DNA of 64,000 nucleotides from Priestia megaterium NBRC 15308 = ATCC 14581 (GTDB taxonomy: Bacteria > Bacillota > Bacilli > Bacillales > Bacillaceae_H). Below the pieces are notes generated by a model that saw only the letters and a list, made by a program, of their open reading frames with translations, made no database searches and was not told the DNA's origin. Shown here piece by piece: positions 1,430 through 9,908 of this stretch. The first letter of the stretch is position 1. Each line of letters opens with the position of its first letter. The position numbers and the translations under genes are program-made. The stretch is taken from positions 496,001 through 560,000 of the forward strand of contig NZ_CP009920.1 of assembly GCF_000832985.1 (NCBI RefSeq), in the 5' to 3' direction.

Positions 1430-2188
1430 TTATCTCTTCGCCTCTTCATATCCAGCAATAAAAGATATGTTAGTTGCTGTTTGAAGCAGCCTTTCTACAA
1501 TAAACTCCTTATGCTTCAGCATTCTTTCCTTAGGACCAGCTACACTAATAGCAGCTTGAATGCTTCCCTTTGCTCCAAATACAGGTGCAGCAAGGCAAAA
1601 CAACCCTTCCTCATTTTCTTCATCATCAATTGCATAGCCCATTTGGATAAAAGAGTCTAGATTGTCATTAAGAACTTTTTTATCTGTAATTGTATAATCC
1701 GTAATAGGTAGCAGCTCCGTATGTTCAAGCAGCTGTTCTCGCTGATCTTTAGGAAGAAAAGCTAAAAAGGTTTTTCCTAATCCAGTACAATAGAGCGGCT
1801 TTCGGTTACCAGGCTGAGCTGTTGTTCTAATAGAGCGATTATTATCAATCTTAACAACATAGACCAACTCCCCATCCGACAGCAAGGCCATAAACACAGT
1901 TTCTTGAACATCCTCCATCAGCTTCTTTAAATACGGTTTTCCTTCTGAAGAAATATCCAACGATTCCATAGCCGCTGCTCCAATTTGAATTAGCTTTGGC
2001 CCTAGCTTGTACTTCTTTAATGAGTCCTGATTTAAATACCCTTCATTATGAAGTGTTCCCACAAGATTAAACGTACTGCTTTGCGGAAGCGAAAGTAAAT
2101 CGCTAACTTCTTTTACTGTTAATCCCTCGGGATGTTGAGCAATCAATTCAAATACCCTTAATACACGTTCTGCTGATTTTACCGACAT
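1430..2188 (-). CDS. kdgR: IclR family transcriptional regulator, probable KDG/pectin-catabolism repressor
   Basis: 252 residues: an N-terminal winged helix-turn-helix (about residues 5-65, SAERVLRVFELIAQHPEGLT to the LPQSSTFNLVGTL recognition helix) and a C-terminal IclR effector domain (about 75-250). First gene of the operon with kdgK and kdgA, so it probably controls its own operon from the palindrome at 2204-2221. In B. subtilis the protein called KdgR belongs to the LacI family; an IclR-type KdgR is known from Erwinia. The effector is therefore likely KDG or a related keto-sugar acid, by context only. Confidence 0.85.
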   Translation of the reverse strand: MSVKSAERVLRVFELIAQHPEGLTVKEVSDLLSLPQSSTFNLVGTLHNEGYLNQDSLKKYKLGPKLIQIGAAAMESLDISSEGKPYLKKLMEDVQETVFMALLSDGELVYVVKIDNNRSIRTTAQPGNRKPLYCTGLGKTFLAFLPKDQREQLLEHTELLPITDYTITDKKVLNDNLDSFIQMGYAIDDEENEEGLFCLAAPVFGAKGSIQAAISVAGPKERMLKHKEFIVERLLQTATNISFIAGYEEAKR

Positions 2189-2203
2189 AAAGAAATCCTC
2201 TCT

Positions 2204-2221
2204 AAATCACATATGTGATTT
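2204..2221. promoter_or_regulatory. Perfect 18-bp palindrome, probable operator of the IclR regulator
   Basis: AAATCACATATGTGATTT reads the same on both strands and sits 15 nt in front of the regulator start. A looser copy (TATATGATTTACTGATTT) follows at 2230-2247. IclR proteins bind such short inverted repeats in their own promoters; the link to this regulator is inference. Confidence 0.6.
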
Positions 2222-2520
2222 TAAATTTTATATATGATTTACTGATTTAAATATTATCATAGACAGATCATTAATTCAAAATATTTTTATAAATCCAACA
2301 AAAATATTTATGACAGAAAATGAAAAACTAGATTTATTGATCTAAAAGCCGTTTTAATTGCTGAAACAGGTATTATATTAACCTAACTTATTTTTTCACT
2401 TCTTCCAAAGCAGCTTTAATAATATTAATTATGACCTGGAATGGGTTAACATGAAGAATTTTCTATGTCGTTAAAGAAACATTGGACGAATTATTTTGGA
2501 TAGACAAGGAGTGATTTTGA
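2222..2520. other. Intergenic region between divergent units
   Basis: AT-rich. Apart from the operator at its left edge and the ribosome binding site AAGGAG before 2521, I see no gene, RNA structure or further repeat. Confidence 0.5.
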
Positions 2521-3063
2521 ATGAAAAAGATAGTTGATCAGAAGTTCACCTTTTTAAATTTGCAGCATATTAAAATTGCATATATTATTCAAACACTTGG
2601 AGTTTTACTTATTCTTGGTCATGATTTCTTAAAAGGTGGATTAGAAAAGATGAAGGCAAATTCACTATGGGTTTTGTTCATTCTATCTAGCGTTGTATAC
2701 GGCTATTTATCTCTAAGTATTAGCGTAGAACAGGAAAAAGAAATAAAAAGACCTTTTCGCTCTTTTTTGCTGAGTTTATTCGTCCTGTTAGTAATCGGTT
2801 CAATTACTGCCTATTTAACATCTGTGACTTCAGGATTTAATTGGAGTAATGGAGTATTATTTGGAGGCATTATTTTTGTATGCGGTCTTATAGCCATGAA
2901 CTATGCGTACCATTTAAGAAAAAACAACAAAATGAATGGGAAGATGATGAATAAAAGAAGACCTTGTTCAAGATCTTCTTTATTTCTACGGATAATTCAC
3001 ATTACGATAACTAGAAGTAACCCTATTTTATGCTATCAATACTTCACATTAAAATTCAGATGA
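2521..3063 (+). CDS. Uncharacterised four-helix membrane protein, probable C-terminal frameshift
   Basis: Not a family I recognise. The first 135 or so residues give four hydrophobic helices (about 19-35, 50-67, 81-101 and 110-128) with short polar loops. The remaining tail is basic, low quality, and is translated through a terminator hairpin (2954-2981). One extra A in the A-run at about 2929-2934 would switch to a frame that ends ...QQNEWEDDE and stops at 2952-2954, at the base of that hairpin, giving 144 residues. I therefore think the natural protein ends there and the 180-residue reading is a frameshift product or assembly error. ATG 2521 follows AAGGAG. Confidence 0.65.
   Translation: MKKIVDQKFTFLNLQHIKIAYIIQTLGVLLILGHDFLKGGLEKMKANSLWVLFILSSVVYGYLSLSISVEQEKEIKRPFRSFLLSLFVLLVIGSITAYLTSVTSGFNWSNGVLFGGIIFVCGLIAMNYAYHLRKNNKMNGKMMNKRRPCSRSSLFLRIIHITITRSNPILCYQYFTLKFR
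2954..2986 (+). terminator. Intrinsic terminator inside the 3' end of the preceding ORF
   Basis: A 13-bp stem (AAAGAAGACCTTG with CAAGATCTTCTTT, one mismatch) and a TT loop, followed by ATTTCT. Its position before the nominal stop codon supports a frameshift in the gene. Confidence 0.65.
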
Positions 3064-5728: not shown

Positions 5729-6028
5729 TTATTTTGGGAAAAGCTTATTAAATAAGATAAGCATAATTACAAAGTATGGAATCCATAATACAGTCCCAAA
5801 ATAATTTAGTTTACTATCTTTTAAGTATTGACGATTAAGTAAATAATAAATGAAACTAAATACGATAATCAAAATCAACATAACTACAACTCCAATTTTT
5901 CGTGCTACTGCTACATCAATTTTTATTATTCTACTAATAAGATAAATATTGAAAATTAGTTTGATATTAATAAAAATCAAAACAGCATATAGTATACTTG
6001 AGAAATTTAATTTCAAAAACCAATTCAT
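5729..6028 (-). CDS. Small membrane protein, possible immunity protein of the adjacent peptide toxin
   Basis: 99 residues with three to four hydrophobic segments (about 9-28, 38-52, 55-68 and 77-95). I do not recognise a family. The longest frame starts at 6064, but that ATG lies inside a terminator hairpin (6047-6082); the ATG at 6028 has GGGAGGG at the right distance and is preferred. It is the third gene behind the secreted precursor at 6407-7078. Small polytopic proteins next to secreted peptide toxins are often immunity proteins; that role is inference from position. Confidence 0.65.
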   Translation of the reverse strand: MNWFLKLNFSSILYAVLIFINIKLIFNIYLISRIIKIDVAVARKIGVVVMLILIIVFSFIYYLLNRQYLKDSKLNYFGTVLWIPYFVIMLILFNKLFPK

Positions 6029-6046
6029 AACGTCCCTCCCTAAATG

Positions 6047-6082
6047 AAAAAAGTCCTCTATCAAGATAATAGAGAACTTTTT
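6047..6082 (-). terminator. Intrinsic terminator between the two small membrane protein genes
   Basis: Stem AAAAAGTTCTCTAT / ATAGAGGACTTTTTT (minus-strand reading) with a T-run. It separates the gene at 6090 from the one at 5729, which then depends on readthrough or its own promoter. Confidence 0.7.
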
Positions 6083-6089
6083 AAAACAG

Positions 6090-6389
6090 TTAGCCTAAAA
6101 TGTAGAATAAGCATAGTAATAAAATATCAACAGGCAAACTAATACTTAGAAAAAGCAAAATATATTTTTTAGGTTCTGGACCTCTCTTCTTAATTGAGAA
6201 GAATTCTACTCCTAAATTGTTGATTGTAATTAGTAAAGCAAACATTACATAAAGCAAAACGTTTTCTTTAAACATATGCGTAAATAGTGGAGAGAATAAA
6301 ATCAAAAAAGTAAACATTTGAAAAGATCCTCTTGAGAACAAGTCTATTTTACCGCCTAAAAAATCTTTGAAAGTGTTATCAGGACTCAT
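6090..6389 (-). CDS. Small three-helix membrane protein, possible immunity protein
   Basis: 99 residues, hydrophobic segments at about 23-38, 42-58 and 76-97, with a basic loop KKRGPEPKK between the last two. No family recognised. ATG follows AAGGTGG and starts 17 nt after the stop of the secreted precursor gene at 6407, so it is cotranscribed with it and ended by the terminator at 6047-6082. The tight coupling makes it the leading candidate for producer self-protection, by analogy with sdpC-sdpI and class II bacteriocin operons. Confidence 0.68.
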   Translation of the reverse strand: MSPDNTFKDFLGGKIDLFSRGSFQMFTFLILFSPLFTHMFKENVLLYVMFALLITINNLGVEFFSIKKRGPEPKKYILLFLSISLPVDILLLCLFYILG

Positions 6390-6406
6390 GTTATATCACC
6401 ACCTTA

Positions 6407-7078
6407 TTATGATAAACAACCAGCAGCAGCACTAGCACCTAACCATACAGCACCAACTCCGGTGCCAATAGCCCATCCTGCAGGTCCACTTACCCCAGCA
6501 ACAGTCATTAGGCCACTGAAAGCAGCAGTATGAGCAAATCCAGCAATCGAAGCTGCTCCACAGCCACTAATTCCTTGAATTGAAACTGTACCAGAAGACG
6601 TTTTACTTGCGCCAAGTTCTTTAAAAATTTGTTCTTTTAGTTCTTTACCTTCTGGGCTATCAATAATTTCGTTGAATTGTTCTACTGTAGCTGTTAGTTG
6701 ATTGTATGAAGGAGAATCAAGGTTATCTTTTACTCTCTCTTTATTTTCAATGATTACTTGATTCTTATCTTCGTCGAATTTTACATACTTTAGAATATTA
6801 TTAAGTTGTTCAACTGAACCTTCTAACTGGTTATAAGCATCAGAATCATTAAGATCATTTTTTAATTCCTCTTCATTAACAATGGTTATTTGATTATCTT
6901 CTTTACTGAACTCTAAATGTTCTAATATAGTATTAAGTTCTTGTTGTTCTGCTGTAGAAAGTTCCTGACTTTCTGCTGCATTTACGCTTACCGGCGTTCC
7001 CACAGCAGTAGACGTAAGTAATACACCAGCTGTTAAAGTCGTACATATGGAAAGTTTAATTTTCTTTGCAAATTGCAT
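6407..7078 (-). CDS. Sec-exported precursor of a probable hydrophobic peptide toxin (SDP-like or halocin-C8-like)
   Basis: 223 residues from ATG 7078 (a TTG at 7096 is also possible). Signal peptide 1-34 (KKIKLS, then a hydrophobic core, cleavage near SVNA-AES). Residues about 46-134 are two tandem copies of a 44-residue acidic unit (N-I-L-x(12)-NQ-x-I-I/V... to SV/TVEQ), with a partial third. After a linker, the last 53 or so residues are uncharged, Gly/Ala-rich, hydrophobic and hold the only two mature-region cysteines (173 and 221). This is the layout of precursors such as SdpC, cut to release a membrane-active peptide. Two small membrane genes follow. Toxin function is inferred, not shown. 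Confidence 0.72.
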   Translation of the reverse strand: MQFAKKIKLSICTTLTAGVLLTSTAVGTPVSVNAAESQELSTAEQQELNTILEHLEFSKEDNQITIVNEEELKNDLNDSDAYNQLEGSVEQLNNILKYVKFDEDKNQVIIENKERVKDNLDSPSYNQLTATVEQFNEIIDSPEGKELKEQIFKELGASKTSSGTVSIQGISGCGAASIAGFAHTAAFSGLMTVAGVSGPAGWAIGTGVGAVWLGASAAAGCLS

Positions 7079-7462
7079 ATCTATAAAATCCCCCAACCCT
7101 AAAAAATACTTTATATGTATTATCCTACCAGATATTCAAAAGCTTGAATTGTATTTCTAGTAATTTGAAAATAACATACTAGAATTATTCAAAAACCAGG
7201 AATTTCATTGTGATTCTTAAGGCTCAAATAAATTCATATATAGAGTCTAAAATCACCGAATTTTAACATATAAAGTGTATCTTCTAGGAGAAACAATAAT
7301 TCTACGTTATTGCTAGTTGCCTTCAGATAATTTTTTTCAAACTGAAATTTTTTTATTTGGAGATGAATTAAAATGCTGTTACCGCGATATAGCATTTTCC
7401 GACGTTTTGTAATTCATACAGTAAATAATGTCGTCAAATACGCACTTTTTAAAATCTGATAC
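7079..7462. other. Intergenic region upstream of the peptide precursor gene
   Basis: AT-rich. Holds the unmarked promoter of the precursor and a hairpin at 7370-7398 (AAATGCT ... AGCATTT) that could terminate the small gene at 7463. No other gene seen. Confidence 0.45.
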
Positions 7463-9041: not shown

Positions 9042-9259
9042 AAGGGTTCATTCATACTTATCCGAGTGCGAACGATAGCAGCATTATAACCTCTTTTTAT
9101 TGTATCCTTATCTTTAGAGTCTTCTAGTCGTCTAACTCCTACTCCACCGCCATCCATAAGTAAGGATTTTTCACTAAATACCAATTCTCCTGTATATGCA
9201 TAATTATAGTTTCGAATATACTCAGAATTAATTACTTCTTTTCCGTTGTAAATGCTCTA
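9038..9259 (-). pseudogene. Truncated gene remnant
   Basis: Open frame of about 70 codons reading NGKEVINSEYIRNYNYAYTG, then MDGGGVGVRRLEDSKDKD, ending ISMNEPL and TAA. It has no canonical start and is preceded in frame by TAG; a one-base shift near 9258 would extend it upstream (VIYARA). Codon pattern looks genuinely coding. Family not recognised. Confidence 0.4.
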
Positions 9260-9353: not shown

Positions 9354-9908
9354 TTGAAACAGAAAGAGATTTTTTCGTGGATTAAATCCATTATTATTGC
9401 CTGTATTCTGGCTTTTGTGGTAAGAGAGTACCTATTTACACCTATAATAGTAGACGGTGAATCGATGATGCCGACTTTAAAAGACAGTGAACATATTATT
9501 CTTAATGAAGTAGGTAAAAATAAAGTAAATAATATAAGAAGATTTGATATTATCGTTTTTCATGCTACAAAGGAAAAAGACTATATTAAAAGAGTAATCG
9601 GTTTACCTGGTGATCATATAGAATATCGCAATGACACGCTATATATAAACGGTAAAAAATATGAAGAGCCTTATCTAGACCAATATAAAAAAGAAATAGG
9701 AACAGGCCCATTAACTGAGGATTTTAAACTTGAAGATTATACAGGCAGCAAAACCGTTCCAAAGGGTCAATTATTTGTCATGGGAGATAATAGAATGTAC
9801 AGCTTAGATAGCAGATCACCTAAAGTAGGAACAATCTCCGTAGACAAAATCGTAGGAAAAGCCAAATTAGCTTATTGGCCTTTAAAAGAATTTCAATGGA
9901 TTAAGTAA
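9354..9908 (+). CDS. lepB: Type I signal peptidase
   Basis: Membrane-anchored serine protease that removes signal peptides from Sec-exported proteins. 184 residues: N-terminal anchor (about 8-26), box B VDGESMMPTL with nucleophile Ser37, box D DYIKRVIGLPGD with general-base Lys79, and box E GDNRMYSLDSRSP. Length and layout match the SipS/SipT type of Bacillus. TTG start at 9354 behind GAGGAG. Flanked by terminators, so monocistronic. It could process the peptide precursor at 6407, but general secretion is the safe assignment. Confidence 0.95.
   Translation: MKQKEIFSWIKSIIIACILAFVVREYLFTPIIVDGESMMPTLKDSEHIILNEVGKNKVNNIRRFDIIVFHATKEKDYIKRVIGLPGDHIEYRNDTLYINGKKYEEPYLDQYKKEIGTGPLTEDFKLEDYTGSKTVPKGQLFVMGDNRMYSLDSRSPKVGTISVDKIVGKAKLAYWPLKEFQWIK

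Follow-up and report, generated by a model that had tools for sequence, protein, structure and literature searches.

SDP (SdpC) and halocin C8 share a layout that includes an export signal, a pro-region and a C-terminal hydrophobic peptide bearing Cys residues, ten of them in mature halocin C8. The class II bacteriocins with a double-glycine leader (PF10439) include the lactobin A/cerein 7B family (TIGR03949), and the mature peptide of cerein 7B is uncharged, rich in Gly and Ala, and bracketed by Cys. Closticin 574 is made as a Sec precursor whose C-terminal mature peptide is freed by an extracellular protease; the precursor has 309 residues and the mature peptide 82 (PMC10888436). A 'closticin' has also been reported for Paenibacillus larvae prophages (PMC9341999). 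The enterocin EntV (enterocin O16 of Enterococcus faecalis; NF058576; PDB 7ROA) is a Sec pre-pro-peptide with two Cys near the ends of a mature part of 68 residues; according to PMC6606811 and PMC9562342 this end-to-end pair is oxidised by a DsbA-like protein, and an extracellular M4 protease cuts the precursor three residues before the first Cys. By analogy, the anatomy of the toxin described here is closest to that of EntV.

The DNA under study, which we call the window, is a stretch of 64,000 nucleotides from Priestia megaterium NBRC 15308, situated on the 5.34-Mb contig of a 5.75-Mb genome, and its ORF listing shows three ORFs in the region 5729-7096, all on the minus strand. The toxin precursor (P0001, 223 residues) is encoded at 6407..7078, and the ATG at 7078 was preferred as its start over the TTG at 7096 because ttgggggattttatag directly precedes that ATG. 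Residues 1-35 (6974..7078) contain three K/R and no acidic residue and are signal-like, with a boundary set by eye and one Cys (C12) inside; residues 36-169 (6572..6973) form an acidic pro-region with 12 K/R versus 30 D/E and two repeats (about 48-91 and 93-134), the internal repeat reaching a local score of 101 versus a maximum of 64 in 2000 shuffles. The remaining segment, residues 170-223 (6410..6571), holds no K, R, D or E and is 48% Gly plus Ala; this predicted mature peptide of 54 residues is uncharged, Gly/Ala-rich, and bracketed by its own two Cys, C173 and C221. In an AlphaFold model of the precursor built with four sequences (mean pLDDT 52), the pro-region appears with fair confidence as two beta-hairpin/helix units (block means 61-86 for residues 41-150); for the mature part the model offers, only as a suggestion and with low confidence (27-43), two helices split at a GP turn. 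The first-pass annotation had described a Sec signal, an acidic pro-region with tandem repeats and an uncharged Gly/Ala-rich C-terminal stretch with two Cys, and the counts of charge, Gly/Ala and Cys together with the repeat score bear out each of these elements.

The toxin family is rare. Among 199 related genomes, relatives were found in the own genome and in G160 (locus L002); 397 genomes of the order gave the same two plus five weak matches to the model of the mature part, all in one genus and judged to be chance, two of the five having been read and lying in murein-synthesis gene regions, and 398 genomes of the phylum gave the own genome plus four weak matches. A species-level collection contributed Ureibacillus terrenus (L003) and Parageobacillus thermantarcticus (L004), a plasmid collection contributed pPA05-1 of Planococcus antarcticus (L005), and viral contigs contributed a phage-like contig (L045) on which the toxin adjoins, by eye, phage head/terminase genes. 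P0001 had no match in phages at E<=0.01 and L045 none at E<=1; it was the match to phrog_37475 that led to L095 in genome G047, and from this divergent member to 13 P. larvae phage records, all with the same match statistics. In the two records that were read, Lily and Bloom, the toxins are identical. The same route gave four viral contigs, two of them identical to Lily over the query and the others, L106 and L107, 85% and 83% identical, and the viral contigs gave no confirmed match with L095 or L100 as query. The last of these, L100, is a divergent member on an E. faecalis plasmid, also reached from the PHROG match through L095, with an E value of 0.07 when found and supported afterwards by later comparisons. 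With identical copies merged, the family comprises 11 distinct loci (the window, L002, L003, L004, L005, L045, L095, Lily, L106, L107 and L100). Not all of them are independent: L003 is almost identical to L004, and Lily, L106 and L107 are related to one another. One other match to phrog_37475, in G154, lies inside a 733-residue membrane protein and was judged to be chance. The L003 copy (1109-1648) seems to lack a normal signal peptide, its immunity gene is open, and by eye it adjoins apparent transposase genes. In the plasmid record NZ_CP016535.2 (L044) many genes are listed twice, about 15.5 kb apart, in a dimer-like arrangement that a fixed-offset comparison did not confirm.

The mature part of the five remaining close members (L002, L003, L004, L005 and L045) is 74-91% identical to that of the window, whereas the pro-region is 30-43% identical in four of them, the fifth, L002, being without such a pro-region; between the window and L003 the mature part shows a pN of 0.043 versus a pS of 0.63. 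On these comparisons it is the peptide, rather than the pro-region, that is kept by selection. The reverse pattern, a conserved pro-region with an unconserved C-terminal peptide, had been named beforehand as the outcome that would speak against the proposal, and it is absent. The divergent precursors L095, Lily, L107 and L100, of which Lily and L107 are close kin, have exactly two Cys, spaced by 47 residues where the window has 48. They also keep a His, which follows the first Cys at a distance of 11 residues (10 in the window), and the G-[VI]-[ST]-G-P turn. With a model made of the close mature parts only, these four score 10.9-19.0 bits versus 6.8 for the best of 2400 shuffles, and one EntV-like and one Ntox44 precursor score below zero; three of the four have weak scores by themselves, with E values of 0.01-0.055 in a set of 2406. 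When pro and mature parts are taken together, Lily and L095 match the close members in a nine-sequence set with E values between 4e-13 and 4e-5. A pro-domain common to other toxins was also considered and rejected: 4 of 299 genomes matched, only the own genome strongly and the others with E values from 5.7e-4 to 0.009. Of the weak matches the one in G009 was read; there, in a different species of the same genus, a weak pro-region-like stretch with two stops (L085, G009:C1:3013303-3013464, E 5.7e-4) may be what remains of a precursor of this kind.

At L002 the peptide is joined to a different leader. Its reading frame, preceded by a good ribosome-binding site, encodes the double-glycine leader MKELKADELVSIDGG and, with nothing in between, the same peptide (ISACG...AAGCLK); the stretch that resembles the Sec-type precursors starts immediately behind the two glycines, and this GG site is also where conservation among the Sec forms has its boundary. 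The cluster around it in G160 encodes an ABC transporter with a Peptidase_C39 domain, an HlyD protein and a Rce1-like protein, and is by its gene content bacteriocin machinery. The window peptide resembles cerein 7B in being uncharged, Gly/Ala-rich and Cys-bracketed, and L002 shares with the class II bacteriocins both leader and export cluster; it is the only relative with a double-glycine leader and a C39 exporter, whereas the window form has a Sec-type signal and a pro-region of 134 residues. Because similarity to L002 starts directly after the GG site, the mature N-terminus of the Sec forms is best predicted to be Ile170. The residue before it varies (G, K, K, R and A in the window, L003, L004, L005 and L045, respectively). 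In L002, the window, L003 and L004 a VSI stands just ahead of the core, in L005 it is VSM, and L045 lacks it; this motif may be what is left of the leader where the two parts were fused. We give about even odds to a broader proposal in which the core would move as a module between a double-glycine/C39 route and a route formed by Sec, an acidic pro-domain and an extracellular protease, with the same N-terminus in both; the pro-domain would serve as a separable part that keeps the core soluble and silent, and phages would carry the toxin-immunity pair as cargo, which would account for two anonymous PHROG families.

Downstream of L002 in the G160 cluster there are two more class II peptides with PF10439 matches (L006, 8563-9122). 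L002 itself stays below the cut-off of PF10439 (21.7 bits, cut-off 27.1). The presence of the two further peptides, together with a score of L002 close to that required by the class IIb model TIGR03949 (19.9 bits, cut-off 21.5), could indicate a two-peptide (class IIb) bacteriocin to which this peptide contributes one component and in which a second is required; we find this unlikely, given that a tblastn search of the window with the precursor finds only the precursor itself and that no PF10439-like ORF was noticed at the locus among ORFs of at least 60 residues.

The candidate immunity protein P0002 (6090..6389, minus strand) is a polytopic protein of 99 residues whose gene starts 17 bp downstream of the toxin gene; two separate stretches pass a simple hydropathy scan (43-66 and 77-95), and three do so in the relatives from L045 and L095. 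A relative of P0002 lies directly downstream of the toxin in eight of the 11 distinct loci, including the leader-switched L002, where the toxin stop overlaps the immunity start (ATGA), and the linked immunity candidate proposed from the sequence is in this way upheld. This count rests on adjacency and not on score, because the immunity model was built from six sequences and five of them come from the eight positive loci. The remaining three (L005, L100 and L095) lack a recognised immunity gene, and in L095 a 92-residue membrane protein that the model does not recognise occupies its place. The pair is distributed over phages, viral contigs and Bacillales genomes, and on the two plasmids (L005 and L100) the toxin gene stands without a recognised partner. 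Lily and window immunity proteins match each other with a BLAST E of 5e-7 in a set of 11 sequences; P0002 had no match in the plasmid collection, and in phages its only matches were four from Rhizobium phages at E 0.6. Both adjacent window proteins match PHROG families that carry no annotation and are also matched by their relatives, the toxin phrog_37475 (E 2.8e-6) and P0002 phrog_37623 (E 1.4e-4), the latter family being matched by the L004 protein and the orphan L041 as well. Orphan relatives of the immunity gene without a toxin (L041 at G000:C6:3209597-3209857, L016, L017, L018 and L021) are all found at a single conserved position, next to a thioredoxin-reductase-like gene, in five genomes: the own one, G002, G006, G007 and G008.

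The association with phages admits another reading, that of a phage-derived lysogenic-conversion factor whose main role would be to exclude or control other phages at the membrane rather than to kill rivals from outside, with the small membrane protein as its partner. It would fit the pairs LILY_33/34 and BLOOM_25/26, which lie close to lysis genes in P. larvae phages, and the L045 pair beside head/terminase genes; yet a Sec signal and a pro-region that can be removed suggest a place of action outside the cell, the form with the double-glycine leader belongs to a bacteriocin export cluster, and plasmid members and several genomic members were seen with no phage genes around them, so that this role seems improbable to us. 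That the peptide is a secreted signal or a component of the surface and not toxic is less probable still, considering the linkage to a small polytopic membrane protein, the spread on mobile elements and the bacteriocin cluster around L002.

Kinship to SdpC or halocin C8 had been suggested on the basis of the general layout, and of that suggestion the secreted hydrophobic peptide, the immunity candidate and the end-to-end Cys pair are supported. The kinship itself is not: the SdpC model TIGR04032 was absent from the genome and found in the control, B. subtilis; the NCBIfam hits of the precursor (five at E<=1) and of the C-terminal peptide (one at E<=10) are all below cut-off and include neither the SdpC model nor that of halocin C8 (TIGR04449 as named in the first-pass annotation, assumed to be in the library); and P0002 has no Pfam or NCBIfam match at E<=1, including to the SdpI model, which is presumably part of both libraries. 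With a Cys pair that spans the whole peptide, and two Cys where halocin C8 has ten, true membership in either family is very hard to sustain.

We consider it probable, at roughly 0.7, that the window cassette is a bacteriocin made as a Sec pre-pro-peptide with a linked immunity protein, and with moderate confidence that its predicted function is most like that of EntV, with a natural switch of leader to class II double-glycine export. The EntV-type layout of signal, pro-part and two Cys near the mature ends is present in the window precursor at the level of sequence, and the first Cys lies three residues after the cut in EntV and after the predicted cut in the window; the window peptide differs in being shorter (54 versus 68 residues), uncharged and Gly/Ala-rich. 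NF058576 was not among the hits of P0001 (E<=1), nor of L045, P0004, L095 and Lily, and the L100 toxin matches it weakly over residues 10-105 (E 0.0018, 18.3 of 130 bits). A PDB search with profile A9 listed 27 hits (best E 0.026), with no bacteriocin and without 7ROA. Closticin 574, compared by description only, is unlike the window in the sizes of its precursor and mature peptide. A PADLOC hit to LeoBC (E 4e-6) was taken as a match of composition. Beside the L100 toxin there is an EntV-like precursor (1948-2526, minus strand; NF058576 E 3.7e-7, 30.3 of 130 bits), with no annotated gene in the record, that has a signal peptide similar to that of its neighbour and a different mature part.

In the mechanism that we propose, the signal peptide would export the precursor via Sec, and the acidic pro-domain would keep the hydrophobic 54-residue peptide soluble and inactive. 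A DsbA-kind oxidoreductase would then close C173-C221 and join the ends of the peptide, a disulfide proposed because the Cys pair is conserved and by analogy with EntV; the own genome has two Thioredoxin_4 (DsbA-like) matches and one M4 peptidase match (G000:C6:4521097). An extracellular protease would cut just before Ile170, three residues before the first Cys. M4 neutral proteases favour Ile, Leu or Phe at P1'. Among candidates for this step we put a secreted protease of this type first, because GelE, which cuts EntV, is an M4 enzyme and Ile at P1' is favoured. Once released, the uncharged peptide would act in the membrane of related bacteria, perhaps as a helical hairpin that bends at the conserved G-[VI]-[ST]-G-P turn, and P0002 would confer immunity, a role suggested by the linkage of its gene to the toxin.

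If this reading is correct, the cassette defines a bacteriocin family with a predicted mature end and a predicted immunity partner, whose members no curated model searched names above cut-off, the weak Pfam and NCBIfam hits of family members being all below it; a literature search at the level of titles and abstract openings found no description of this toxin family. It would also give a likely function to two phage protein families that lack one, phrog_37475 and phrog_37623, and the combination of one core peptide with two unrelated leaders would offer a natural experiment on the contributions of leader, pro-domain and exporter.

The first-pass annotation had grouped the three ORFs in one locus. 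All three exist, but a cassette of two genes with an adjacent third is the better description, because a hairpin separates the last two genes and the last gene is a truncated copy. The hairpin (6048..6082, minus strand) has a 16-bp stem followed by a U run and a z of -2.9, with an equally stable structure in one of 200 shuffles; it possibly ends the toxin-immunity transcript, and a consensus terminator scan listed no terminator at this position. The gene at 5729..6028 (minus strand) encodes a membrane protein of 99 residues from the ATG at 6028, with 'agggaggg' before the start; the product shares 86% identity with a 137-residue protein of G006 over the initial 98 residues of the latter and then ends. 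In G006 and G012 the gene for the 137-residue protein lies behind a signal-bearing Ntox44 precursor (PF15607, E 1.9e-9 each), and in two other relatives (L068 and L072) there is no toxin alongside. Its distribution is also different, with relatives in 13 genomes besides the own among 101 searched, versus the toxin in the own genome and G160 among 199. From these sequence relationships the gene most likely belongs to another toxin and not to the cassette, and its earlier assignment as a second immunity protein was judged unlikely.

The idea that the Ntox44 precursors of G006 and G012 have the same pro-domain is not supported, the hhalign probability being 0.6%; within a set of six, the G012 precursor matches the window with a pairwise BLAST E of 0.004 with no composition correction, and an HMM gives E values of 0.03 (G006) and 0.13 (G012). 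The scanned neighbours are ABC, DUF1048, PadR and S26 peptidase genes. A type I signal peptidase (PF10502) is encoded at 9354-9908, approximately 2.3 kb from the toxin gene, and may be near it by chance, since part of the gene also matches G008 elsewhere. At 9074-9256 the window carries a fragment of an Ntox44 gene, 71% identical over 63 residues to the G006 copy, whose position is immediately past genes that flank the window locus as well; on account of this fragment, the truncated 5729-6028 partner and the position of the G006 copy, the locus looks like a toxin-exchange site.
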